DNA of 45,493 bases from Salinivirgaceae bacterium. GTDB taxonomy: Bacteria > Bacteroidota > Bacteroidia > Bacteroidales > SZUA-534. The notes beneath the pieces are model-generated. The model searched no databases. It saw only the letters and a list, made by a program, of their open reading frames with translations, and had not been told where the DNA came from. The stretch is from contig JAEINW010000017.1 in assembly GCA_016342715.1 (NCBI GenBank), positions 1 through 45,493 on the forward strand. The letters are read 5' to 3'. A program made the translations under genes and the position numbers. Shown here piece by piece: positions 2,071 through 35,506 of the stretch (positions are counted from its first letter, which is position 1; each line of letters starts with the position of its first letter).

Positions 2071-4938
2071 TTAATCTTGATATTCTGAAATTGGAGCACA
2101 AGTACAAACTAAATTTCTGTCGCCATAGCCATCGTCAATTCTGGCAACTGTTGGCCAGAATTTATTATAGGTAATCCAATCAAGTGGATAGACAGCTCTT
2201 AGCCTGCTATATGAGTGATCCCAATTGTCATCTACTGCTTCAAGAGCTGTATGTGGAGCATTTTTTAGAAGGTTATCTTTTGCATCTAAATTTCCATTCT
2301 TAATTTCTTGAATTTCTTCCATAATGGATGCCATAGCTTCCACAAAGCGATCAATTTCTTCTTTGCTTTCACTTTCAGTTGGTTCAACCATTAATGTTTC
2401 ATGAACAGGAAATGATAAAGTAGGAGCATGGAATCCATAATCCATTAAACGTTTAGCAATATCAACCGTTTCAATTCCATATTCGTGGCGGAAGTGGCGG
2501 CAGTCAATAATCATTTCATGACCAACTCTGCCATTGGCTCCAGTATAAAGTATATTAAAATTTTCTTTTAATTCATGGGCTATGTAGTTGGCATTTAAAA
2601 TAGCCATCTTAGTCGACCATGCCAATCCATCGGCTCCTAGCATTTTAATGTAAGCATGTGTAATAGATAGCACAAAAGCACTTCCGTATGGTGCACCTGC
2701 AACGGCTTTGATTCCTTTATCACCACCTGTTTTAACTATTGGGTGTGTTGGTAAGAATGTAACTAAGTGTTTGGCAACTCCAATTGAGCCAACACCAGGA
2801 CCACCGCCACCATGAGGAATGGCAAATGTTTTATGTAAGTTTAAATGGCAAACATCGGCACCAATAAAACCAGGGCTAGTTAATCCAACCTGTCCATTCA
2901 TATTTGCTCCGTCCATATAAACTTGTCCACCATTTTCATGAATAATGTTCATCATCTCCATAATTTCAACCTCAAAAATACCGTGGGTTGAAGGATAGGT
3001 GATCATAAGTGAGTGGAGATTATCTTTATGTTCTTCCGCTTTTGCTTTTAAATCATTTATGTCAGTATTCCCTTTTTCATCGCAAGCAACTATAATAATA
3101 TTTTTCCCTGCCATAGCAGCACTTGCTGGATTTGTTCCATGAGCTGATGCTGGAATTAAAATGATATTTCTGTAATCTTCTCCTCTTGATCTGTGGTATT
3201 CGCTAATTACCATTAAACCAGCATATTCACCTGCAGCGCCTGAATTTGGTTGAAGAGACATTCCTGCAAAGCCCGTAATTTCAGCTAAATCGTTTTCAAG
3301 TTCTTCAATTAATATTTGGTATCCTTCGGCTTGTTCTTTTGGAACAAAAGGATGAATATTACCAAACTCTGACCAGCTTAAGGGAAGCATTGAAGTGGCA
3401 GAGTTTAATTTCATGGTACATGAACCTAGCGGAATCATTGAGTGTGTAAGTGAAATGTCTTTACGTTCCAACTTTTTTATGTAACGCATCATATCGGTTT
3501 CGGAGCGATATAAATTAAAAATTCGCTCTTCTAAAATAGGAGTGTTGCGCAAATACACTTCATCAAAATATACATTTTCTGTGTATTCTGAAATTTGAAT
3601 AGGTTTTTTACCACCTGATTGAGCAATAATTCTTATAATTTTATTTATATCTTTTATTGTAGTAGTTTCATCTAAACTAATTCCTATGGTTTTTTCATCA
3701 ATGTAGCGGAAATTAATTTCTTCGTCATAGCCCAAAGCTATTAGGTTGTTTGCGTTTGTGCAGGTTAATTTTACACGCAAAGTATCAAAGAAATTCTCAT
3801 TTTCTTGTTCGTTCGAGAGGCTTTCTAAACCTTTGTTTAATAAGCCAGTTAAGGCATGAATTTTATGAGCTATTGCTTTTAAACCTTCAGGACCATGATA
3901 AACTGCAAACATTCCAGCCATATTTGCTAAAAGAGCTTGTGCTGTGCAAATATTTGAGGTTGCTTTTTCACGTTTAATATGTTGTTCGCGAGTTTGTAAA
4001 GCCATTCTTAGTGCTTGATTTCCATTTCGGTCAACGGAAATACCAATGATTCTGCCAGGCATGCTTCTTTTTAATTTTTCAGTGGTGGCAAAATATCCAG
4101 CATGTGGGCCACCATATCCCATGGGTACTCCAAAACGTTGGGTAGTACCACAAACAATATCGGCTCCCCATTCTCCAGGAGGCACTATTATGGTTAAACT
4201 CATTAAATCGGCAATAACAGTTACCATTGAGTTATTTGCGTGCACTTTTTCAGTGAATCCTTTGTAATCTTCTATCGAACCATCGGAATTTGGATACTGA
4301 ATTATTGCACCAAAAACTTTATCGGTAAATTCAAATGTTTTATAATCGCCAATTTCAATTTTGATGCCCAATGGTTCGGCACGAGTATTTAGAACATCTA
4401 GCGTTTGTGGGAATATTTTTTCATCAACAAATAATATGTTGCCTTCATTTTTAACAAACGATTTGTCACGTTTGCTATACATCATAATAATTGCCTCGGC
4501 AGCTGCCGTTGATTCATCTAATAACGAACTATTTGCAATTCCCATTCCGGTTAAACTAGTAACCATTGTTTGGTAATTTAACAGTGCTTCGAGTCTGCCC
4601 TGCGAAATTTCTGCTTGATATGGGGTGTATGAAGTATACCAGCTTGGGTTTTCAAAAATATTTCTTAAAATAACCGAGGGAGTTATGGTATTGTAATATC
4701 CCATCCCAATATACGATTTGTACATTTTATTTTTTGATGCAATTTTTTTAATATGATTTAAATATTCATATTCAGTCATTGCATTTGAAATTTTTAATGA
4801 AGCTTTTAATCGGATGTTTGATGGAATGGTTTGATCAATCAACTCATCGATAGAAGAAACTTCTAACTTTGAAAGCATACTATCGATGTCTGTGTTGCGA
4901 GGCCCTATGTGGCGCGACAAGAAATTATTTGATGACAT
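2071..4938 (-). CDS. gcvP: Glycine dehydrogenase (aminomethyl-transferring), P protein
   Basis: 955 aa; PLP-lysine region NLHKTFAIPHGGGGPG; full-length GcvP with N-terminal SRHIGPR. Confidence 0.97.
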   Translation of the reverse strand: MSSNNFLSRHIGPRNTDIDSMLSKLEVSSIDELIDQTIPSNIRLKASLKISNAMTEYEYLNHIKKIASKNKMYKSYIGMGYYNTITPSVILRNIFENPSWYTSYTPYQAEISQGRLEALLNYQTMVTSLTGMGIANSSLLDESTAAAEAIIMMYSKRDKSFVKNEGNILFVDEKIFPQTLDVLNTRAEPLGIKIEIGDYKTFEFTDKVFGAIIQYPNSDGSIEDYKGFTEKVHANNSMVTVIADLMSLTIIVPPGEWGADIVCGTTQRFGVPMGYGGPHAGYFATTEKLKRSMPGRIIGISVDRNGNQALRMALQTREQHIKREKATSNICTAQALLANMAGMFAVYHGPEGLKAIAHKIHALTGLLNKGLESLSNEQENENFFDTLRVKLTCTNANNLIALGYDEEINFRYIDEKTIGISLDETTTIKDINKIIRIIAQSGGKKPIQISEYTENVYFDEVYLRNTPILEERIFNLYRSETDMMRYIKKLERKDISLTHSMIPLGSCTMKLNSATSMLPLSWSEFGNIHPFVPKEQAEGYQILIEELENDLAEITGFAGMSLQPNSGAAGEYAGLMVISEYHRSRGEDYRNIILIPASAHGTNPASAAMAGKNIIIVACDEKGNTDINDLKAKAEEHKDNLHSLMITYPSTHGIFEVEIMEMMNIIHENGGQVYMDGANMNGQVGLTSPGFIGADVCHLNLHKTFAIPHGGGGPGVGSIGVAKHLVTFLPTHPIVKTGGDKGIKAVAGAPYGSAFVLSITHAYIKMLGADGLAWSTKMAILNANYIAHELKENFNILYTGANGRVGHEMIIDCRHFRHEYGIETVDIAKRLMDYGFHAPTLSFPVHETLMVEPTESESKEEIDRFVEAMASIMEEIQEIKNGNLDAKDNLLKNAPHTALEAVDDNWDHSYSRLRAVYPLDWITYNKFWPTVARIDDGYGDRNLVCTCAPISEYQD

Positions 4939-5151: not shown

Positions 5152-5808
5152 ATGAAAATTCTTAAAATATACATTCTTGCAGTTGTTAATATGCTTATTG
5201 TTAATAATTTACTAATTTCTCAAGAAACAACTATTTGCTTGCTTGATGGTAAAAAAGTTTTAGTTAATGATTATAAGATTGATAATCCAGCTGATGAAGA
5301 GGGAGTTTTGTTTTATAATAATGCAAAGGGAAAGCAAAAGAAGCAATATTTAGACAATGTATTTTCTATTGTTGAGAATGGTACAGAAAATATAATTTAC
5401 AAGCAAAACATTGAAATGGGTGACATTTTAACTCCCGAGCAAATGAAAATGTATGTTAAAGGTTTGAGCGATGCACTTGAGAATTATAAAGTACCCGATT
5501 GGGTGGTTGCAGGTGGCTTTGCATCCGGTTATTTAGGAGGAGTTCTTCCTCAGCCAACCTTAGAGCTTGAGGGTTCTGAAATGGGTCTACCCTTAGGAAT
5601 ATTAATACCTGTTGCTTATATAGGTGCTGTAGGCGCTGGTAATGCCGATGCGAATGCATTGAATAATTCATTTCCCGAATCTGTTCAAAACGAATACTAT
5701 TTGATGGGCGTTGAAAGTGGAGTGCAGAAAAAACGAATTAAAAAAAGCTTAATAGGTGGAATACTTGGTTTTACAATGGGAGTATTAACCTATGCGGTAA
5801 TAAATTAA
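5152..5808 (+). CDS. Hypothetical secreted/membrane protein
   Basis: 218-aa ORF with N-terminal hydrophobic signal and Gly-rich hydrophobic C-terminal segments. Confidence 0.7.
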   Translation: MKILKIYILAVVNMLIVNNLLISQETTICLLDGKKVLVNDYKIDNPADEEGVLFYNNAKGKQKKQYLDNVFSIVENGTENIIYKQNIEMGDILTPEQMKMYVKGLSDALENYKVPDWVVAGGFASGYLGGVLPQPTLELEGSEMGLPLGILIPVAYIGAVGAGNADANALNNSFPESVQNEYYLMGVESGVQKKRIKKSLIGGILGFTMGVLTYAVIN

Positions 5809-6810: not shown

Positions 6811-9327
6811 TTGCATAAAAAAGAAGATAACGTGATATTTCCAGAGAATTTTGAACATAAGATTGATTTTGTAAAAGTTAGAGAGCTTTTGAAAGAGCAT
6901 TGTTTGAGTGAAATTGGGCAAAGTTTGGTTGGCGATATGAAGTTTATGAATCGCTTTGATTCCATTAAGGCGCGACTTAATGAAACCAATGAATTTAAAT
7001 CAATTCTGAAAAGTCAGCAGGAATTTCCGGTAGAACATTATTTTGATTTGCGACCTGCTATTCATAAGATTCGACTTACAGGATCTTTTCTGGAAGTAAA
7101 AGAATTGTTTCAGTTGCGTAAGTCCATGCAAACGGTTAAATTAATTATTCTTTTTTTTAAAAAGGAAGATGCTGAGGCGAAATATCCAACATTAAAAGGA
7201 ATTTCAAAAAATGTGGTAGTTCACCCTTATGTTACCGATGGCATTGACAGAATTTTAAATTCTCATGGAAAAATAAAAGACAAAGCATCGCCAGAATTGG
7301 CAAAAATTAGAAGTGATTTAGCAGCAAAACAATCGTCAGTTTCAAAGCTTATTCATAGAATAATCCATCAGGCACAAAAAGATGGATGGGTAGATGCTGA
7401 CGTTTCACTGGTAATTCGCGATGGACGCTCGGTTATTCCAGTTCCTGCATCGTTTAAACGAAAAATTCCTGGCATCGTTCATGATGAATCGGCTACTGGA
7501 AAAACCTGTTATGTGGAACCCACACCAGTTGTTGAAATTAACAACGAGCTAAATGAATTGGAAGCCGAAGAGCGCCGCGAGATTGTGAAAATTCTAAAGG
7601 AATTTACCGATACCATTCGCCCCTATGCCGATGATTTGGAAGATGGCATTGTGTTCTTAGGAATTATGGATTTTATTCGTGCAAAAGCAAAATTCGCTTT
7701 ACGTATTAATGCATCACTTCCGATGCTAAAAAATGAACCGGAAGTAAATTGGCAAAATGCCATTCATCCTTTATTATTTTTAACATTTCAAGAAGAGGAA
7801 CGCCAAGTAGTACCCTTAACTTTGAAACTTGATGTTGAAAAACGAATATTACTAATTTCAGGACCCAATGCTGGTGGTAAATCGGTTTGTTTGAAAACGG
7901 TTGGTTTACTTCAATACATGTTGCAATGCGGCATGTTAATTCCGGTTGAAAAGAAAAGCGAAGCTGGAATTTTTTCCAATCTATTTATTGATATTGGCGA
8001 TGAACAAAGTATTGAAAACGATTTGAGTACCTATAGCTCACATCTGTTAAATATGAAGCATTTTACAAAAAACGCCAATGAAAAAACATTAGTATTAATC
8101 GATGAATTTGGAACAGGTACGGAACCTATGTTGGGTGGAGCCATTGCCGAGTCGGTTTTGAATAAATTAAATAATGATAAAGCTTTTGGCGTGATTACCA
8201 CACATTATACAAATCTAAAACATTTTGCATCGTCGCAAGAGGGAATTGTAAATGGAGCTATGTTGTACGATTCGCAAAAACTGGAGCCTTTATTTAAACT
8301 CGAAATAGGAAAGCCAGGTAGCAGTTTTGCTTTCGAAATTGCTTATAAAATTGGCTTACCACAAGATATTATTGATGATGCAAAATCGAAAGTAGGAGAG
8401 GATCATGTGAATTTTGACAAACATTTGAAAGAAATTTTGCGTGATAAAGCTTACTGGGAACGAAAACGACAAAACATTAGAAAGGTGGAACGCCGTCTGG
8501 AAGAGATGATGGAGAAGGAGAAGGTGGAACTGGAGCAAGCCAAAGAAATTAGAAAAGAAATTAAAGAAAAAGCACAAATCGAAGCTCATAAATTATTGGC
8601 TGATTCCAATAAATTAATTGAAAATACGGTTCGTAAAATTAAGGAATCGCAAGCAGATAAAGAAAAAACTAAAGAAGTTCGAAAAGAAGTTGATGTATTT
8701 AAGGATAAAATATCAAAAGTAGATAGTGCTGAAGAAGAAAGAATTAATCGCAAAATGCAAAAGATTCGCGAACGCGAAAACAGAGTAATTAAAAAGGACG
8801 ATAAGAAGGATGATTCAGCTCTGGTGGAAAAACCCAAAAAGTTGGTTCGCGAAAAGGAATTTACCATTGGAATGCCAGTGAAAATAATTGGGCAAAAGTC
8901 TATTGGCGAAATTATGGAACTTAGCCATAAAAATGCAGTAGTTGCTTTTGGTAATTTATTAACTACCATTGATATTAAGAAATTGGAACATCTTGATAAT
9001 AATGAGAAAAAGCAAGTATTAAGAGCTTCTTCGAGGACAGGAGCTTATACACAATCGTACGATTTAAATCAGCGCCGAATAAGATTTAAACCAGGACTTG
9101 ATGTTCGCGGCAAACGTGCCGAGGAAGCCATACAAATGGTTACTGAATTTATTGATGAAGCCATAATGCTTAATGTTTCAGAAGTTAAAATTTTACATGG
9201 CACCGGAAGCGGTATTTTACGCCAATTGATTCGCGAGTATTTATCAACCGTTGATGTGGTTGCTCGTTTTAAAGATGAAAAAATAGAATTTGGCGGAGCT
9301 GGAATTACAGTGGTGCAGATTGGGTAA
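6811..9327 (+). CDS. mutS2: Endonuclease MutS2 (MutS-like ATPase with C-terminal Smr domain)
   Basis: Walker A GPNAGGKS; DEFGTGTEP; C-terminal Smr LDVRGKRAEEA...ILHGTGSGILR. TTG start likely. Confidence 0.94.
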   Translation: MHKKEDNVIFPENFEHKIDFVKVRELLKEHCLSEIGQSLVGDMKFMNRFDSIKARLNETNEFKSILKSQQEFPVEHYFDLRPAIHKIRLTGSFLEVKELFQLRKSMQTVKLIILFFKKEDAEAKYPTLKGISKNVVVHPYVTDGIDRILNSHGKIKDKASPELAKIRSDLAAKQSSVSKLIHRIIHQAQKDGWVDADVSLVIRDGRSVIPVPASFKRKIPGIVHDESATGKTCYVEPTPVVEINNELNELEAEERREIVKILKEFTDTIRPYADDLEDGIVFLGIMDFIRAKAKFALRINASLPMLKNEPEVNWQNAIHPLLFLTFQEEERQVVPLTLKLDVEKRILLISGPNAGGKSVCLKTVGLLQYMLQCGMLIPVEKKSEAGIFSNLFIDIGDEQSIENDLSTYSSHLLNMKHFTKNANEKTLVLIDEFGTGTEPMLGGAIAESVLNKLNNDKAFGVITTHYTNLKHFASSQEGIVNGAMLYDSQKLEPLFKLEIGKPGSSFAFEIAYKIGLPQDIIDDAKSKVGEDHVNFDKHLKEILRDKAYWERKRQNIRKVERRLEEMMEKEKVELEQAKEIRKEIKEKAQIEAHKLLADSNKLIENTVRKIKESQADKEKTKEVRKEVDVFKDKISKVDSAEEERINRKMQKIRERENRVIKKDDKKDDSALVEKPKKLVREKEFTIGMPVKIIGQKSIGEIMELSHKNAVVAFGNLLTTIDIKKLEHLDNNEKKQVLRASSRTGAYTQSYDLNQRRIRFKPGLDVRGKRAEEAIQMVTEFIDEAIMLNVSEVKILHGTGSGILRQLIREYLSTVDVVARFKDEKIEFGGAGITVVQIG

Positions 9328-9342
9328 TATGCTAATATAACG

Positions 9343-9381
9343 CTGACAGAACTATTTCACAGGATAAAATAGTTCTATCAG
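9343..9381. repeat. Long near-perfect hairpin between mutS2 and manA
   Basis: CTGACAGAACTATTT / AAATAGTTCTATCAG, 15-bp arms with one mismatch. Confidence 0.7.
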
Positions 9382-9394
9382 GGTTAAAAAATTA

Positions 9395-9561
9395 AACCTA
9401 AGTTGAGCGATTTGAATAAAATGAAAGGCGCTATACTTAGAGTTAACCCCGACCTAGAAATTGTTGGTTTTCACAATTTGAGTGAAATGAAAAATTTGAA
9501 AACCTTACAATAACTCAGTCGATTGAGCAGAATAGCGATAGCTAATCGCTCAATTTGGGTT
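9395..9561. mobile_element. MITE-like segment bounded by 18-bp terminal inverted repeats
   Basis: AACCTAAGTTGAGCGATT (9395-9412) versus reverse complement of AATCGCTCAATTTGGGTT (9544-9561): 16 of 18 match. Confidence 0.4.
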
Positions 9562-9565
9562 AAAA

Positions 9566-10552
9566 TCAATCAATATAAACCTCCAATATTTTCGATTCTT
9601 TTGAAAGAGGTTCTAAACCAATTTCAGGCAAAATAGCGGGAATTAATAAAGTCTCTCCTTTTTTTAAAATTATTTCCTCAGTTTCTGAATAGGTAATTTT
9701 GGTATCCCCATCAATGCCCATATAAATTACAAAAGAGTCTAAGCTAAAATAGTCTTTAACAACTTTAGAGTTTAGATTAATAATGTTGGTTGTAAAATAT
9801 GGACACTTAATAATTTCAGAGCTTTTATTAATTTCCTCTTTGTATGGTGTCTTAACTTCTTTATGATAGTTATAATCAATAGCATCAATGGCTAGTTCAG
9901 TGTGCATTTCACGCGGTTTTCCATCATCTCCAAAACGATCCCAATCGTAAATACGGTAAGTAATGTCTGATGTTTGTTGAATTTCAGCAAATAAAATACC
10001 AGGTCCGGTCGCATGAACTCTACCAGCAGGCATAAAAAATACATCCCCCGTTTTTACTTTTTCAAAATTCAATACTTCGCGCAAAGTTCCTGAGCCAAAA
10101 TGCTGTAAGTATTTTGTTTTATCCATTTCCTGATTAAAACCAGCAATTAATTCGGCCTCTTTTTCAGCGTCAATTACATACCACATTTCAGTTTTGCCAT
10201 ATGAGTTGTGTCTTTCTCTGGCCAAGTCATCATCGGGGTGCACCTGAATAGATAAATAATCGTTGGCATCAATATATTTAATTAGTAAGGGAAATTCCAA
10301 TCCAAATTGCTCGTAAACTTTATCCCCAACTAAATCGCCCATATATATTTCAATAAGTTCCTCAATAGTATTGTCTTGTAAAAATCCGTTTTCAACCACC
10401 GATAAATCTCCAGATACTCCTGAGATCTCCCAGCTTTCTCCCATTTTTATATTTTCATCGACAGATTTATTTAACAAATTCTTTAATTTTTGGCCACCCC
10501 AAATTTTTTCTTTAAAAATGGGATTGAATTTTATTGGATAAAGTGTGCTCAT
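9566..10552 (-). CDS. manA: Mannose-6-phosphate isomerase, class I
   Basis: QVHPDD, GKTEMWYVIDA, AGRVHATGPGILFAEIQQTSDITYRIYDWDR. Confidence 0.93.
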   Translation of the reverse strand: MSTLYPIKFNPIFKEKIWGGQKLKNLLNKSVDENIKMGESWEISGVSGDLSVVENGFLQDNTIEELIEIYMGDLVGDKVYEQFGLEFPLLIKYIDANDYLSIQVHPDDDLARERHNSYGKTEMWYVIDAEKEAELIAGFNQEMDKTKYLQHFGSGTLREVLNFEKVKTGDVFFMPAGRVHATGPGILFAEIQQTSDITYRIYDWDRFGDDGKPREMHTELAIDAIDYNYHKEVKTPYKEEINKSSEIIKCPYFTTNIINLNSKVVKDYFSLDSFVIYMGIDGDTKITYSETEEIILKKGETLLIPAILPEIGLEPLSKESKILEVYID

Positions 10553-27634: not shown

Positions 27635-27836
27635 GTATCTGACCTCTATGGTATGCCCATTCATACAACTTATGAAATCTACGGTAGTTCTTTGTCTTTT
27701 TATCCTCAAAGGCTCTTTGGCAAAGTGCGGTCTAAATTAGGGTCGGATGTGTGACTTTGTAATGTGCCTGAAATAGCGTTGGTTTTTTTGGGATTGTAAG
27801 CAATAAACGTTTTTTATCGACTTGTTGTGTGGCGTT

Positions 27837-28628
27837 TTATTCTGTAATATTTATTTTTGAATTATAGTATTCTAAGAATCCATTTTGCCCTTTCAATTTT
27901 AGGATATTTTGATTCTCTATAAAATTCTGTCCATATTTTTCCCAGCGTTTAGTCCAACTTTTGAATTTTTTACATGGGAACTCATCACATTGATAACAAT
28001 ACGATACACCTTTATCTTTACAGCACAAATGAAATGTCTTACAGTTTTCACATCTGGCATAATTTATTTCGGCACCTGGGCATGGTTTTTTTTCTCTGGT
28101 ATAAGTTGGACATCCACCACAAAAACAGCCACAAGCTGGCACTCTCCCTTGATAGTTTTTAAGTTCTAATTTTTGAATGGAGGCTTTAACCAATTCAAGA
28201 GGCATTGAAATTATTTCTGAAATTTCTTTTAATGTATTTCCTTCTTTAGTTAGTCTATATGCAAGAAATTCCATTGATTCTCCAACTTCTATAATATTTT
28301 TATCGAGGTCGTAAAATCTTATTACTTTTTGTCTCCATGGTTGTTCTCTTAATTCGTGAACAAAATCAACTTTGATTTCACTCAATTTATTTTCTAATTG
28401 TTGGAGATTGTCATATTCAAAATATAATTCAAAATTATTGCAGTTTGTCTTTATCTCTTTATTATCAATTAGCTTTTGAAAGTGCGATTTCTTATGAATG
28501 GCAAAATCTCCTTCAAAAGTTACATTCTCGCCAAAATCAAATTTCACTTTTTGCTCTAAAACTTTCTCATAAAATTCACGTGATTTTTTAATATCGGCAA
28601 CTGTTATTAAAGGGCAAATAAATTTCAT
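27837..28628 (-). CDS. VOC (glyoxalase/bleomycin-resistance) domain fused to a DUF3795-like Cys-rich domain
   Basis: N-term ICPLITVADIKKSREFYEKVLEQKVKFDFGENVTFEG (VOC); C-term CGCFCGGCPTYTREKKPCPGAEINYARCENCKTFHLCCKDKGVSYCYQCDEFPCKKF (DUF3795-like). Confidence 0.85.
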   Translation of the reverse strand: MKFICPLITVADIKKSREFYEKVLEQKVKFDFGENVTFEGDFAIHKKSHFQKLIDNKEIKTNCNNFELYFEYDNLQQLENKLSEIKVDFVHELREQPWRQKVIRFYDLDKNIIEVGESMEFLAYRLTKEGNTLKEISEIISMPLELVKASIQKLELKNYQGRVPACGCFCGGCPTYTREKKPCPGAEINYARCENCKTFHLCCKDKGVSYCYQCDEFPCKKFKSWTKRWEKYGQNFIENQNILKLKGQNGFLEYYNSKINITE

Positions 28629-28699
28629 TTTTTTTAGGCTTAATAGTTATTCTGTTCATCAATTTTATAAAAACTCTTAGTCTCAGGTTCTCCAAAATG

Positions 28700-28968
28700 C
28701 CTTACAAGTCACTAATAGCATTTAAAGTATGGTGTTAGCGGCTTGTAAGGTTTTATGCATTGTCATAGCAAATCAATTTTACTCGCAAATATAAAAATAT
28801 TTATTTGCGCTTGTGAGCTAAAGATTCGAGTGCCAATTCCTGCCTGGCAGGTAGGCAAGGCAGGAAATTTTATTTTTCAGCGAAGAATTAATTTGCAGGC
28901 TTTCAAATATATATTAGGTTTGCAAACGCACTTAACTCGTATTTTTTATAGGCATATACAAAGGGCGT
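28700..28968. repeat. Dispersed intergenic repeat, copy A (with nested palindrome)
   Basis: Shares GTTAGcGGCTTGT, CATAGCAAATCAATTTTACTC, GAGCTAAAGATTCGAGTGCCAATT and CGTATTTTTTAT blocks with copies B and/or C; nested TTCCTGCC...GGCAGGAA at 28837-28866. Confidence 0.75.
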
Positions 28969-30165
28969 TTATTGTATTATGAATTTTTTCGTTGCAATTC
29001 CTTTGTCCGTTTTTGCTTTTATAATATAAATTCCGCTTGAAAAATTTATTAGATCAATTGTTGTTTTTGTACTTGATGTATTCAAGGTTTTTACGATTTG
29101 TCCTTGCTCATTAATTATTTGAATTGTTCCATTATTTAATCCAGTGATTTCAATTTTATCATTTGCAGGATTTGGGTAAATACGGATATTGTTTTCTGTA
29201 AAATTATTATTTTGAATAGAGGTAACATAGTCATTGCAATAATAAACGCCAGTGTCAATACATGCAAAAATAGTGATACTGCTAAGTACAGGATTTACTT
29301 TAAACTTGTGAATATTTTTATTGGGTAGCCCTGTATTTAAAAAAGTAAAATTATTAGCAGTTGTATCGTAAATGGCAACTCCTTCGAAAGGTGCAGAAGC
29401 TCCATTAAAGCCAGTGAATATTTTGCCTAAAACATCAAATCCAACGGTGTTCATATTGTCAATATAATATTCTATATTCCATGTATGGCCGAAATTGTAT
29501 GAAATATACAAGCCCGATGAATTTGACATTCCGGTAAACACACCGTATAATATTCCGTTTTGATTAAACGCAATGTCATGAATGATAACGACTGATGATG
29601 ATTGATTCCATGTGTTACCGCTGTCGTCTGAATAATAGGTGGCAAATATGTTGTTTTCTTGAGTTACTACAATATGCTGTTCGTAGAAATCCATAGTAGT
29701 ACATCCTTTGTCCTGAAAGTAGGGAACTGCTTCCCATGTTAGCCCATCGGAAGAGCTCAGCATCCCGTTGTATCTTGTTCCAGCATAATATGTATTATTG
29801 ATAGTATTGTACTTGATGAATGTTGGATTGAAGCAATATTCTACCAAATAAAAAGTGTTGGTTGATAAGTTGAGTTTATAAATACCGTCGGAATAACTTC
29901 CGTTTCCCATGACAAGAAGAATGTTACTTGTGTCAAAGGGAATCGCTTCCATTACCGGAAGACCATAATTAATTGTATTCCATGAAGCACCTACGCCGTT
30001 ATTTACACAAACTCCGCTATCAGTGCAAATTACATCATAACCGTCACTACCCGCACCAAACAAGATGTTGTTGGCATGAATTCCAGTGGGACCGTATGTT
30101 GTCCAGTTGAAACTGAATACAGTCACATACAGGGTCATTAATAATAGTGTAAAAATTGTTTTCAT
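28969..30165 (-). CDS. Secreted protein with T9SS type A sorting domain (BNR/photosystem-like repeat family)
   Basis: Signal peptide; SSDGLTWEAV, SDDSGNTWNQSS repeats; C-term IRIYPNPANDKIEITGL...GIYIIKAKTDKGIATKKFIIQ. Confidence 0.88.
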   Translation of the reverse strand: MKTIFTLLLMTLYVTVFSFNWTTYGPTGIHANNILFGAGSDGYDVICTDSGVCVNNGVGASWNTINYGLPVMEAIPFDTSNILLVMGNGSYSDGIYKLNLSTNTFYLVEYCFNPTFIKYNTINNTYYAGTRYNGMLSSSDGLTWEAVPYFQDKGCTTMDFYEQHIVVTQENNIFATYYSDDSGNTWNQSSSVVIIHDIAFNQNGILYGVFTGMSNSSGLYISYNFGHTWNIEYYIDNMNTVGFDVLGKIFTGFNGASAPFEGVAIYDTTANNFTFLNTGLPNKNIHKFKVNPVLSSITIFACIDTGVYYCNDYVTSIQNNNFTENNIRIYPNPANDKIEITGLNNGTIQIINEQGQIVKTLNTSSTKTTIDLINFSSGIYIIKAKTDKGIATKKFIIQ

Positions 30166-30316
30166 AATTTCTCCATTTTAAAATAATGTTTAATATTTGA
30201 CTATTTCATATTTACATGAGGGGTTTATAAACTATTCCTATTTCTCCATTATTACTATGTTAGGTTAGTACTTTTTTTTGCCTTGTGTATAAAGTGTGTT
30301 GGCTGGCGGTTTAACT

Positions 30317-31045
30317 TTAACAAATTTGTCTTTCATATAATAGTCTTTTTCCGTATGATTCAATAGCACCTTTTCCTCTTAGGAAACAGCTTGTAAGTAA
30401 ATCTATGTCATTAGTGAAATCTAAAGCTTTATTCAGTAATTCTTTTTCTTTATCAGACCACGGTTCATAGGCTCTAGGGTATTGTATTCTTGCTTTTTGT
30501 ATATATTCAGAAAGATTTTCAACTTTAGTAATTTCTAATTCTGAAACTTTTTGTTTTAATTGATTAATTGCATTCTCTGATAGTTTATTAAAGGTTTGCT
30601 GTTGAAAAAAATCAATATTTGACCACGGATCTTCATTCCTTTCTTTTTTTGTTGATGGATAAAATTCATTAAGAAATTCAGTTAAATGATCTGTGAGAAA
30701 ACCTTTTGTTTTAATAAATTTATATTTACCATAAAGTTCGTTTTTATTTATTTCTTCTTGTTTAAATTTCTTTACACCTAGAAGAAAGTTTGTCAATCTA
30801 TTAGGTGTAAGATTAATTTTAGATTGTTTGAAAACTTCGATTGAATTTCTAATATCCTCTTCACTAATTTGAATTTCTTTTCGATTGGTATAAGAGTTTA
30901 ATTTTAACTCATTAATTGCAATTTGAAGAGCTCGAATAACATTTCTTTCATTCAGTACGTTATCTTTTTCAAGTTCTTCTCCTGTAGTAGGGGAATACCC
31001 AGAAGCAAGTGCTTCTAAAATTTCAATTACAGTATTTTTTTCCAT
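30317..31045 (-). CDS. Hypothetical protein, 242 aa
   Basis: Intact ORF with coding-like composition; N-terminal LASGYSPTTGEELEKDNVLNERNVIRALQIAI motif. Confidence 0.7.
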   Translation of the reverse strand: MEKNTVIEILEALASGYSPTTGEELEKDNVLNERNVIRALQIAINELKLNSYTNRKEIQISEEDIRNSIEVFKQSKINLTPNRLTNFLLGVKKFKQEEINKNELYGKYKFIKTKGFLTDHLTEFLNEFYPSTKKERNEDPWSNIDFFQQQTFNKLSENAINQLKQKVSELEITKVENLSEYIQKARIQYPRAYEPWSDKEKELLNKALDFTNDIDLLTSCFLRGKGAIESYGKRLLYERQIC

Positions 31046-31084
31046 AATTTTAATTTTGTAGTGTGCTTTTAGTAACTAGCAGCC

Positions 31085-31320
31085 AATTTACAAGTTATGA
31101 AAAGAGCTGTATTAGTGGCTTGTATCGTTTTAGCAACCTTCATAGTAAATCAATTTCACTCATAAATATAATAATATTTTAATGCGCTCGTGAGCTAAAG
31201 GTTCGAGTACTAATTTAAGCAAATTATATTTTTATAAAAAATAATTTGCTGTAAATCCAAGTTCGAATGAAGTTTCAAGCTGAACATTGTCCGTATTTTT
31301 TATGCATTGTGTGTGCTCAT
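31085..31320. repeat. Dispersed intergenic repeat, copy B
   Basis: ATTAGTGGCTTGTA, CATAGTAAATCAATTTCACTC, GCGCTCGTGAGCTAAAGGTTCGAGT, AATTTAAGCAAATTAT, CGTATTTTTTATGCATTGTG. Confidence 0.75.
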
Positions 31321-31371
31321 AATGGCTTCCATAGCCCACACTTGTAAGGTATAGTTGATATTTTCCAAAGA

Positions 31372-31660
31372 GTGTGATTAAAGTTGATAAAGACATTAAC
31401 AATAATCAAGTCTCGAAATGCTTAGCAGTGGGGCATTAAAGTTGAAGGAAAGGGCGCAGTGGGCAACCACAGGTATGAACCGACCAAAGGGAATAACTAA
31501 AAAGCTGTAGGCATGATCTGTACTGACGAACGGATATTGTAGAACTATAGTAAATCATACAAGGTGTATATGAGGCATATTGAGTTCGATAAGGTGACAC
31601 ACCTCGCCTAAGTAAACTGAAATGAAGCTGAAACAGGCTAAAGTCGTCCCAATTATTCAC
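31372..31660 (+). mobile_element. Probable 3'-truncated group II intron remnant (5' ribozyme domain only)
   Basis: GTGTG 5' consensus (GUGYG) at 31372; structured purine-rich non-coding RNA-like sequence with GTGG-GCAA-CCAC GNRA hairpin and AGGTGT/ACACCT pairing; no RT ORF or domain V downstream. Confidence 0.5.
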
Positions 31661-31814
31661 TTCACTTCACCGCTTTTTGCTATATTGCGTGTTAACAACT
31701 GGCTTTCTTTTCAGTATTCAATTGTTTATCATTTTAAGTACTAATTATTCTTGATTGCACAATAGATATCCTAGATGCTTAAAATTAAGGAATTTAGCAT
31801 GTTTTGTTTAAGTT

Positions 31815-33410
31815 TTATTTTAAGTGATTAAGACGTTTTGTTTCAACAAATTTATTGTCAACATTAAGAGAATAGAAAAATATTCCACTTGAATATTTAT
31901 TTGCATTCCATATTACCTCATGTTCACCGGCATTAAGTCTTTCGTTTACAATCGTTTCTACTTCTTGCCCCAAAATATTAAAAATTTTAAGTGATACCTT
32001 ATTTTCTTTTGGAATAGTAAAATGTATTGTTGTATATGAATTGAACGGATTTGGATAATTTTGTGAGAGTGAAAATTCGCTCGGTGTTTGATTGTTTTCA
32101 AGTATACCTGTTGGTCTCGAATATTCATAAGCACCCATATCAATTCTGCCCCCTATAATTCTGGCATTCCCGTCAATATCGTATAACGGAAGATGTAAGC
32201 CACTTGTATCAGGACTACCTGCGTTATTGCACGGAGAATTTTTTGTTAAATGATAATCATAATTATTTTCATCAACAAAAAACGGATTTTCATTTATATT
32301 TCCTTCGCCTGCCCAATCTTCTGAAATATTTGAATAAGTTATTATCACAGAATCTTGAGGCCCGAAATAATCGATTTGGTCAGGTGTATTACCCCATATT
32401 ATAGAATTTATTAATAATGTTGAATAACAATAAATTCCTCCGCTTTCAACTGAAGCTGAATTATTTGCTATTGTTACATTGATTAATTTTGTATTTACAA
32501 TTCCTTCGTAATAAATGCCTGCACCATATTCTGAATTATTATCAGTAATGAGAACATTTTTTAATGTAGGACAATTATTTTCACCACCAAAATTCCAAAA
32601 TAATATTCCTCCTGCCAGAAAATTAGAAGAATTTTTTGATATTATAGAATTTTCAATTAACGGATTTGCATCTGCAATATAGCATCCTCCACAAACTGAT
32701 GTAGCGTGATTTTCGGAAACAATTAAGTTCGTCAATATTGGATTTGATTCAATTATTACTATACCACTTCCGTTATTTGCAGAATTGTTATTAATGTCAA
32801 TATTTGTAAAAGTTGTATTTGCATTGACCCAATTCATTATCCCGCCACCTACATGCGAGGAATTATTTGATATTGTTAAGTTTTCAAAACAAGAATTTGT
32901 TTCTTTTAAAAAAATACCGCCACCCCAATCAGCAACCGAATTCTGATTTATTATTAAGTTTTTAAATTGGGGATTTGCGGAAATACAACAAATTCCGCCA
33001 CCTGCATATACCCAAAACTCGGGAGTATCATCATAAGGTTGAATATAATTGCCGCTTCCGTTTGTTATAGAAAAACCGCATAAGACAGCAGTAGAATTTT
33101 CGTCGTTATTAAACGTAACCACACTACCAAAATCTGAATTAACAAGACTTCCTCCGTCAATTACTGTTTGCGTAATATAATTTTCGTCGTGTGTTGTCAG
33201 GAACCAGGAAGCTACCACAATATTTTTACCATTGAAATTTACGTTCTCATAGTAAGTGCCCGGGGCAACAAGAACCGTATCATGCTCCAAAGCTGTATTC
33301 ATTCCCTGCTGAATAGATGGTTGGTCGGCTGGAACGTTGACGATAGCAGCATTCAAAAAGGAGGTAAAAATTAGTAAGCTAAGTAATATAATTATATTTT
33401 TCATTTTCAA
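31815..33410 (-). CDS. Secreted right-handed parallel beta-helix protein with T9SS sorting domain
   Basis: Signal peptide; repeated NNSA..GGGI / NPILTNLIVSEN units; C-term FSLSQNYPNPFNSYTTIHFTIPKENKVSLKIFNILGQEVETIV. Confidence 0.9.
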   Translation of the reverse strand: MKMKNIIILLSLLIFTSFLNAAIVNVPADQPSIQQGMNTALEHDTVLVAPGTYYENVNFNGKNIVVASWFLTTHDENYITQTVIDGGSLVNSDFGSVVTFNNDENSTAVLCGFSITNGSGNYIQPYDDTPEFWVYAGGGICCISANPQFKNLIINQNSVADWGGGIFLKETNSCFENLTISNNSSHVGGGIMNWVNANTTFTNIDINNNSANNGSGIVIIESNPILTNLIVSENHATSVCGGCYIADANPLIENSIISKNSSNFLAGGILFWNFGGENNCPTLKNVLITDNNSEYGAGIYYEGIVNTKLINVTIANNSASVESGGIYCYSTLLINSIIWGNTPDQIDYFGPQDSVIITYSNISEDWAGEGNINENPFFVDENNYDYHLTKNSPCNNAGSPDTSGLHLPLYDIDGNARIIGGRIDMGAYEYSRPTGILENNQTPSEFSLSQNYPNPFNSYTTIHFTIPKENKVSLKIFNILGQEVETIVNERLNAGEHEVIWNANKYSSGIFFYSLNVDNKFVETKRLNHLK

Positions 33411-33703
33411 TAAGGTTTCAATTTATTGTTGAATTTAAATTATAAATGCAATTTTTTCGGATAAGCTGGTGTGGTCAGCAATCTTTCCGATTGGTTTGTT
33501 TTGTATGTCATTATATGTTTTTGCATCATGTTGTATACTGTAGTTGTCTTTTTTGCCTTGTTGTAAACAACGGATGGTTCTGAATAGTTGCCGAATGTGG
33601 GTTACTTCCCTTTCCATATACGATGAATATAGCGCGGGCTAAAACTGTTGAATAACCTACTAGACGGCAATTATTTATGATCTAATTGTTGGTAACTGTA
33701 TTT

Positions 33704-35065
33704 TTATTCTACAGCATAAACAGCATATCCGCGTGAAGGAGCCCAAAATTCCCCCCAGAAATTATAAGTCTTCGCATCTTGAGGCGAATTTGAATCATTG
33801 TTACCTCTCCATGCTACAGGTTTAAAACTACAATTCTCCCATTGGGTTTTCACACATTTACCAGCCCAGCGACCTTCATTTTTATTAAGGACATATACTA
33901 AGCCTTTTTTATCGTTAAACCCTCTTCTTTGCATAATGTATAAGCCTGAATCTGCATACAAAACATCGGCGTCTCCTCCCGCATATTTTTCATGAGCAGA
34001 AATAAGTGCATCAATTCCGCTATTGTTTTCTGACTGTGCTAAATCAAAATTGAAATAATCTTGCCAAAAAACACATGGATAACCAGGGTGAGTAAGTATA
34101 AACGAATATGCAAGCATTTTATCAGCAAAAATCTCTTTATCAGAAACATCAGGATGAGGCCAGCACGTATCATGGTTTTCTACAAAAGTAACAGCATTAT
34201 ATGGCCTATCCAACAAAGTATTATTCCAATAAGCTAAGTCTCTTAAATCATACTCTTTATCAAGACAAAGTTTTCTTAATTTACTTCTCAATGGGAAATC
34301 AAAAGCAGAAACAGGATTATCTGAGAAATTATTGATTTCATTTAACCAATATTCTATAGTTTGGTCATTATCATCCCAAAGCTCTCCAACTCCAAAAGGC
34401 TTATAATATTCAGAAAAATCATTAGATACTTTGTATCTCATTTCCTGAATAGATTTAGTCATCCAGCCTCCATATCCTTTAACACAATCGTACCTAAAAC
34501 CATCAAAACCGATTTCTTCAATTAGCCATTTACAGTAATCTAATATTTCTTTATATATCAAAGGATTTCTATGGCATAAGTCTGTTTTAGAATATCCGCC
34601 AAATGTACTTCCATCATAAGATTCATAAACAGATGGGTGAAAAGAATCATAATCTCTTTCAAATTTTCCACTTTTTGGACTAAATTTTGTGTACCATTTA
34701 TCTCCTGTATGAGGATTTTCTTCTAATTCACCACCACTACAATGGTTAAAAACTAAATCTGCTAAAACTTGCATATCCTCGTTATGGGCTGTTCTGATTA
34801 GGGAAAGTAAGTCATCTTTCGAACCATACCACGTTTCTTTTCCGTCATGATGCTTTTGCTGAAACTCTCCTAAATCATAAAAATCACTAGGGTCATACCC
34901 CATACTAATAACATCTTGTGCTTTACAAGCAGGAGGTAACCATAAAGCTGTTATACCTGAATTTTTTAATTGAGGTATTTTTTCTTTAACATGTTTCCAC
35001 CATTTGAACTCTTGATTTGCAACTCTTGGACAATCCCAATAGAATGCTTGCATTAAAACTCCCAT
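33704..35065 (-). CDS. Alpha-amylase (GH13), no signal peptide
   Basis: VLADLVFNHCSGGE; FDGFRYDCVKGYGG; GVGELWDDN; VTFVENHDT (GH13 conserved regions). Confidence 0.92.
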   Translation of the reverse strand: MGVLMQAFYWDCPRVANQEFKWWKHVKEKIPQLKNSGITALWLPPACKAQDVISMGYDPSDFYDLGEFQQKHHDGKETWYGSKDDLLSLIRTAHNEDMQVLADLVFNHCSGGELEENPHTGDKWYTKFSPKSGKFERDYDSFHPSVYESYDGSTFGGYSKTDLCHRNPLIYKEILDYCKWLIEEIGFDGFRYDCVKGYGGWMTKSIQEMRYKVSNDFSEYYKPFGVGELWDDNDQTIEYWLNEINNFSDNPVSAFDFPLRSKLRKLCLDKEYDLRDLAYWNNTLLDRPYNAVTFVENHDTCWPHPDVSDKEIFADKMLAYSFILTHPGYPCVFWQDYFNFDLAQSENNSGIDALISAHEKYAGGDADVLYADSGLYIMQRRGFNDKKGLVYVLNKNEGRWAGKCVKTQWENCSFKPVAWRGNNDSNSPQDAKTYNFWGEFWAPSRGYAVYAVE

Positions 35066-35117
35066 AGTATTTGCATTTATGTGAAATAATATTGTAGTGT
35101 ATTCTTCTAGCTATTGT

Positions 35118-35300
35118 TGCCAACGATAATGCTATGAAAAGTACGGTATTAGTGGCTTGTGGCGTTTTTAGTCCCTTCATAGCAAATCAATTTTCGAGTG
35201 CCAATTTAAGCAAATTATTTCTATACGAGAAATTGTTTGCGGGCTGTCAAGTACAGAATAGTTTTGCAATAGCACCGTATTAGTATTTTTTGTAGGTTTT
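35118..35300. repeat. Dispersed intergenic repeat, copy C
   Basis: GCTATGAAAAGTACGGTATTAGTGGCTTGT, CTTCATAGCAAATCAATTTTC, TCGAGTGCCAATTTAAGCAAATTATTT, CCGTATTAGTATTTTTTGTAGG. Confidence 0.72.
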
Positions 35301-35506
35301 GTTATCATTTGTGTTTTGATTGGTTCGCATAACAAAACTATATCAAGGATTGTATTAATAGACTATTGAGTGCAAATATTTTACAAGAAAAGCGATCAAA
35401 TGATAGATAGTAAAGTTTAAAAAAAAATATTAATGAATTTGAACAAGATTACCATAACGGAGTTCTTATTTTAGACTTTTGAATTATCCAATTTAAAATC
35501 TCATTT

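Follow-up and report, generated by a model that had tools for sequence, protein, structure and literature searches.

A putative integron cassette array with unusually long attC-like sites in a Salinivirgaceae assembly

The five-gene island beside korB

The window considered here is a 45,493-nucleotide stretch of DNA from a Salinivirgaceae bacterium (Bacteroidales; assembly GCA_016342715.1, contig JAEINW010000017.1), in which an island of five minus-strand genes (27837-35065) is flanked by plus-strand korA/korB and by a plus-strand histidine kinase gene. The initial annotation had described five functionally unrelated genes running opposite to both flanks, with repeats at gene boundaries, of which A, B and C are full copies and three more are short fragments, and both descriptions are confirmed. 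The repeats lie on the minus strand and are 65-79% alike across their common stretches. Models of the 3' and 5' halves of the repeat family, in whose training set A, B and C themselves are included, match them at E 7.8e-19 to 3.3e-15 and at E 9.9e-16 to 5.8e-15, respectively. The three fragments (27808-27834, 30280-30309 and 31671-31703) are inverse-core halves located 3' of gene stops. Read in the direction of the genes, and labelled according to the interpretation proposed below, the features are:

about 35118..35312, minus strand: attC-like site C, opening the array, with R' = GTTGGCA and R'' = GATAAC; about 200 bp (models and sequence comparison)
33704..35065, minus strand: cassette gene 5, alpha-amylase (GH13; Pfam PF00128, NCBIfam alpha-amylase)
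33563..33696, minus strand: putative attC of gene 5, of a different sequence type, with R'' GTTACCAAC, L'' AATAATTGCCG, L' CGGCAACTATT and R' GTTGTTTAC (read from the sequence)
31815..33410, minus strand: cassette gene 4, secreted protein with choice-of-anchor Q and type IX secretion system (T9SS) sorting domains (domain searches)
31671..31703, minus strand: R''/L'' half of the gene 4 attC, GCCAGTTGTTAACACGCAATATAGCAAAAAGCG (sequence)
31331..31670, no strand: non-coding filler separating site B from the half-site of gene 4 (pieces on four other contigs)
about 31084..31314, minus strand: attC-like site B, in which the core has degenerated to ATTGGCT (models and sequence comparison)
30317..31045, minus strand: cassette gene 3, 242 amino acids, no family assigned (domain searches)
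30280..30309, minus strand: attC at the boundary of genes 3 and 2, apparently collapsed to R'' (CCGCCAGCCAACAC) abutting R' (TTTATACACAAGGC), the hairpin precisely gone (sequence)
28969..30165, minus strand: cassette gene 2, secreted protein with a T9SS sorting domain (domain searches)
about 28700..28966, minus strand: attC-like site A, in which the core has degenerated to GTAAGGC (models and sequence comparison)
27837..28628, minus strand: cassette gene 1, glyoxalase-fold (VOC) and DUF3795 (domain search)
27808..27834, minus strand: R''/L'' half of the attC that closes the array, CGCCACACAACAAGTCGATAAAAAACG (sequence and anchored test)

The island is best read, at a probability of roughly 0.87, as a short array of integron cassettes that has partly decayed and has no integrase beside it (a cluster of attC sites lacking integron-integrases, CALIN), its units having presumably been inserted by an integron integrase. 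This reading is favored because of the layout of the sites, their orientation, the complementarity between the starts and ends of units, the complementarity of the site arms, and the presence of an integron integrase in the assembly. Toxin-antitoxin cassettes and a Cass2/GyrI-like gene on the contig of the integrase also speak for it. Each unit would then consist of an accessory gene and an attC site. Insertion would proceed by recombination at the GTT core of attC folded as a single strand, with the integrase acting in trans or, alternatively, at a time when the array still had its platform. The repeats would represent one sequence family of attC sites that owe their unusual length to optional nested hairpins in the middle. 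The earlier view of the island as cassette-like thus stands with regard to its unidirectional units and boundary repeats, but the system is not an undescribed one, given its attC layout, start-end complementarity and integron integrase.

The site family across the assembly

A profile search built from the repeats, as the initial annotation had proposed, extends the family beyond the window. Within the 358 contigs of the assembly (5.54 Mb), a search with copy A alone gives about 27 additional hits at E<1e-3, while at the same threshold the 3'-half model finds 37 sites and the 5'-half model 30, which merge into 39. None of the 39 has its midpoint within an open reading frame (ORF) of at least 100 amino acids, and most are co-directional with their neighboring genes, both upstream (28 of 34) and downstream (31 of 37), which argues against repeats unrelated to gene boundaries. 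The sites without co-directional neighbors look like array ends. Several contigs start or stop within a family site, which would be expected if repeats break the assembly. On contig C202, a cassette gene (2350-3696) lies between two intact sites (2028-2223 and 3698-3885). On several contigs the sites adjoin toxin-antitoxin genes, including HigB, ParDE, HepT/MntA-like and PIN cassettes. An exact-pattern scan with the 3' block gave 0 matches in 84,980 species genomes, and identical cores are therefore rare outside this genome.

Site anatomy and length

In the direction of the genes, the stop codon is followed after about 5-30 nt by an inverse core (..YAACA), the L'' arm (GC)TTATAAAAAATACGG, a variable middle, the L' arm CCGTACTTTTNATAGC, 5-6 nt, the GTT core and then the next gene. 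The earlier statement that no attC consensus is recognizable has to be withdrawn, since both an inverse core (..AAC) and a core of the attC type (GTT..) are present. Described attC sites are bounded by RYYYAAC and GTTRRRY and measure 57-141 bp (PMC3053210, PMC5371416). The sites of this family exceed that range, which is descriptive rather than a mechanistic requirement, with lengths of 148-338 bp, a median of 225.5 bp and about two thirds above 200 bp. This spread arises because optional hairpins vary in the middle of the site, namely TACTCACAGCC..GGCTGTGAGTA, TGCCTACCGG..CAGGCA and CTCACGAGCGC..GCGAGT. In L043 2469-2753, L044 5578-5907, L051 11746-12035 and L056 7704-7964, optional nested hairpins are present in some copies and missing from others, as though small elements had inserted into attC.

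The two arms pair with each other, scoring 19.1 compared with 13.4 for shuffled arms, and 4.05 pairs between L'' and L' are expected in the predicted ensemble compared with 0.75 in controls. In the intact site of L041, the predicted fold contains a clear stem with a bulged base.

Complementarity between the starts and ends of units

In an integron cassette, the first bases (TTRRRY past the crossover) are complementary to the last bases of the same cassette (RYYYAAC), because the two were joined in the circle. This property was assessed by an anchored test, in which 13 nt starting at the GTT core were set against the 45 nt past every downstream stop, so that the ends were not hand-picked. The sample comprised 39 sites, at least 33 of them from this assembly and the remainder from three relatives, with the window units included. 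Own start/end pairs scored 12.38, whereas permuted starts scored 10.71 +/- 0.32 (0 of 20,000 permutations, z 5.3). Gene-level versions of the test gave z 3.7 and 3.9, compared with z 0.7 for control genes on the same contigs. Examples of complementary ends are GTTATAGGGCATT/..GCCCTATAAC, GTTGTATGGC/GCCATACAAC and TTAGCAACAAGCA (13/13), and the same complementarity recurs in the independent genome G001 (GTTAGCTGC/GCAGCTAAC) and in G107 (GTTAGGGGTA/TACCCCTAAC).

Three window units paired at 7, 11 and 11 nt past the stop, each taken singly falling within the top 15-23% only. The gene 5 unit has the end ACAGTTACCAAC, 7 nt past the stop and complementary to its cassette start GTTGGCAAC; the gene 3 unit pairs 11 nt past its stop; and in the gene 1 unit, ACAACAAGTCG, also 11 nt past the stop, is complementary to the gene 1 cassette start. 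Some sites have no resolvable partner because long units hold several genes as well as other attC types.

These results also bear on the possibility that the repeats are interspersed, non-autonomous elements, similar to miniature inverted-repeat transposable elements (MITEs) or repetitive extragenic palindromes (REPs), which insert past gene stops without moving any gene. Such elements would account for the sequence similarity within the genome, the intergenic position, and hairpins with optional modules. They would not, however, yield units whose two ends are complementary, and their orientation would not be expected to be fixed relative to both neighboring genes. In addition, unit ends that lack the full repeat still carry cognate short cores, making this explanation very improbable.

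The integron integrase of contig C173

The initial annotation noted no recognizable integrase in the window; one does exist elsewhere in the assembly. Contig C173 (L039 1-9750) encodes one integron integrase (IntI) at 8676-9641, the only one in the assembly, which matches TIGR02249 at 470 bits (cut-off 265) and aligns with Vibrio VchIntIA (2A3V) over its full length at 327 bits, the IntI-specific insertion included. The gene does not adjoin the window array. C173 also carries one attC-like site of 134 bp (5397-5530), where both site models have their top match in the correct order and strand; direct folding of this site was not above shuffles. The contig also has a restriction gene of GmrSD type and one that is Cass2/GyrI-like. 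Both the GmrSD gene and intI are preceded by a 70-bp repeat that ends in GTTATCG or GTTAGCG; C173 stops about 113 bp upstream of intI, where only the GTTATCG-ended 70-bp repeat is seen. At L039 7910-7965, a short attC similar to the Vibrio cholerae repeat (VCR), TATAACAACGCATTCCAGCGG..CCGCTGAATTTGAATGTTATAC, adjoins the Cass2/GyrI-like gene; we take it to be of a type more typical of gammaproteobacterial integrons.

The composition and GC content of C173 agree with the genome. The other half of the contig carries phage-like DprA-like, HNH and LAGLIDADG genes, and no capsid or terminase gene was seen on its 9.8 kb. Across the genomes searched, IntI over the cut-off is rare, occurring in two of the 118 relatives and in two of the 395 genomes from the class, with the present genome included. 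The only other integron integrases among the sampled Bacteroidia are those of L103 (G026) and L104 (G258), near which no site of this family was found.

Several observations weigh against interpreting the island as an integron cassette array. Some concern the sites themselves: GTT is strongly conserved, yet the full GTTRRRY occurs in only a minority of cores, and folding predictions give no preference for the bottom strand, which is the more stable in 10 of 28 sites, unlike described attC. The L stem is absent from the predicted ensemble of window sites A, B and C, and C and A show no significantly better folding than shuffled sequences (z -1.75 and -0.77); these three sites of the window are degenerate. 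The L arms do not covary significantly, own compared with other (p 0.13), and a wide-region start/end test of the five window genes alone is not significant either; the genome-wide, anchored test is. Others concern the enzyme. Shine-Dalgarno-like motifs precede 5 of 8 ORFs on C173, compared with 14 of 179 elsewhere, and because of this frequency and the phage-like genes on the other half of the contig, C173 may be foreign to the genome and its integrase mobile or misbinned. Furthermore, G001 and G107 both carry family sites, but no IntI over the cut-off was found in either.

Some of these points would suit a different enzyme. Sites of attC shape could be moved by another recombinase, for instance one of the several tyrosine recombinases on contigs C153, C177 or C322, with the C173 integrase as a phage-borne or contaminant bystander. 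The partly foreign appearance of the IntI contig, the two genomes with sites and no IntI, and sites far longer than described attC and lacking bottom-strand bias would all be in keeping with this explanation. The arrangement of core and inverse core and the start-end complementarity are nevertheless those of IntI cassettes, and the IntI contig itself bears a site of the same type. The enzymes of C153, C177 and C322 match the IntI family in two halves only, leaving out the IntI-specific stretch, and model searches found no family site on their contigs. We therefore regard this alternative as improbable. For the integron cassette array, recombination by IntI, the strand used and the C173 integrase as the acting enzyme are inferred.

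Relation to described integrons

The proposed mechanism is a known one, and what is unusual is the Bacteroidales host together with the unusual length of the sites. About 39 attC-like sites of one family in a single Bacteroidales assembly are of importance given that the phylum has been reported to be very poor in integrons. In Bacteroidetes, IntegronFinder 2 identified In0 only and then one complete integron, in Salinibacter ruber (PMC9024848). CALINs have been described along with proposed origins that include off-target insertion by an integrase located elsewhere (PMC8618304). The present array resembles CALINs (Cury et al.; PMC9024848, PMC8618304) in its tandem, co-directional genes, each with an attC-like site and with no adjacent intI, in having an integrase elsewhere in the assembly, and in its degenerate end sites. 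It differs in its host, a member of the Bacteroidales, where complete integrons were almost unknown, in the roughly two thirds of sites above 200 bp, and in the interleaving of several attC sequence types.

The default length limits of IntegronFinder are 40-200 bp, and default integron search settings probably miss most of these oversized sites. A published run used attC limits of 40-200 bp (PMC13203075). The sites of sedentary chromosomal integrons are mostly 120-129 bp in length (PMC5371416), in contrast to the median of 226 bp here. Like the superintegron of Vibrio cholerae with its VCR sites, the assembly has a single attC family typical of the genome, whose terminal structure is long and branched, as well as toxin-antitoxin cassettes and mainly accessory genes; unlike that single platform, the sites here are scattered over many short contigs and loci in a fragmented assembly. 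Phage-borne integrons (PMC9892861) are comparable to C173, where an integron integrase and cassettes occur with phage-like DprA-like, HNH and homing-endonuclease genes, but no capsid or terminase is seen on C173.

If the sites recombine, integron-borne gene exchange in Bacteroidota has been under-counted, and the length range assumed for folded attC needs revision. A broader proposal would be a Bacteroidota integron lineage with oversized, modular attC (150-340 bp), whose cassettes cross families, go largely uncounted under 200-bp caps and are possibly moved by a non-canonical recombinase; at present this appears rather doubtful.

Occurrence in relatives and remaining features of the island

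Sites of the family were found in 7 of the 118 genomes searched, including this one. G107, from another family of the order, has a site that shares 94% identity over 185 bp with one in this assembly, and G001, from another genus, has a site that shares 89% identity over 167 bp with window copy C. Such near-identical sequences in another genus and another family suggest that the sites spread horizontally. The nearest relative by korB (L105, a Salinivirgaceae metagenome-assembled genome, 83%) retains the korA/korB neighborhood with neither island nor site, although no precise empty-site junction can be read there because the genes downstream of korB also differ. Ordinary intergenic regulatory or terminator elements of a vertically inherited operon would likewise place hairpins past the stops of co-directional genes. 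This explanation is hardly credible for a set of unrelated genes that the nearest relative lacks beside the same korA/korB, and for an element that recurs at 94% identity in another family and belongs to no Rfam family; an Rfam scan of the whole island returned nothing beyond chance. A HigB-type pair adjoins a family site in both G000 and G001.

The filler at 31331-31670 gave no match in Rfam and plasmid searches. By eye, 31331-31690 resembles domain I of a group II intron, but neither Rfam nor a DNA search of the genome itself supports this reading, and nor do the ORFs close to two of the places where the segment recurs. Pieces of this non-coding segment (31331-31690) recur at 78-97% identity on contigs C20, C42, C46 and C93.

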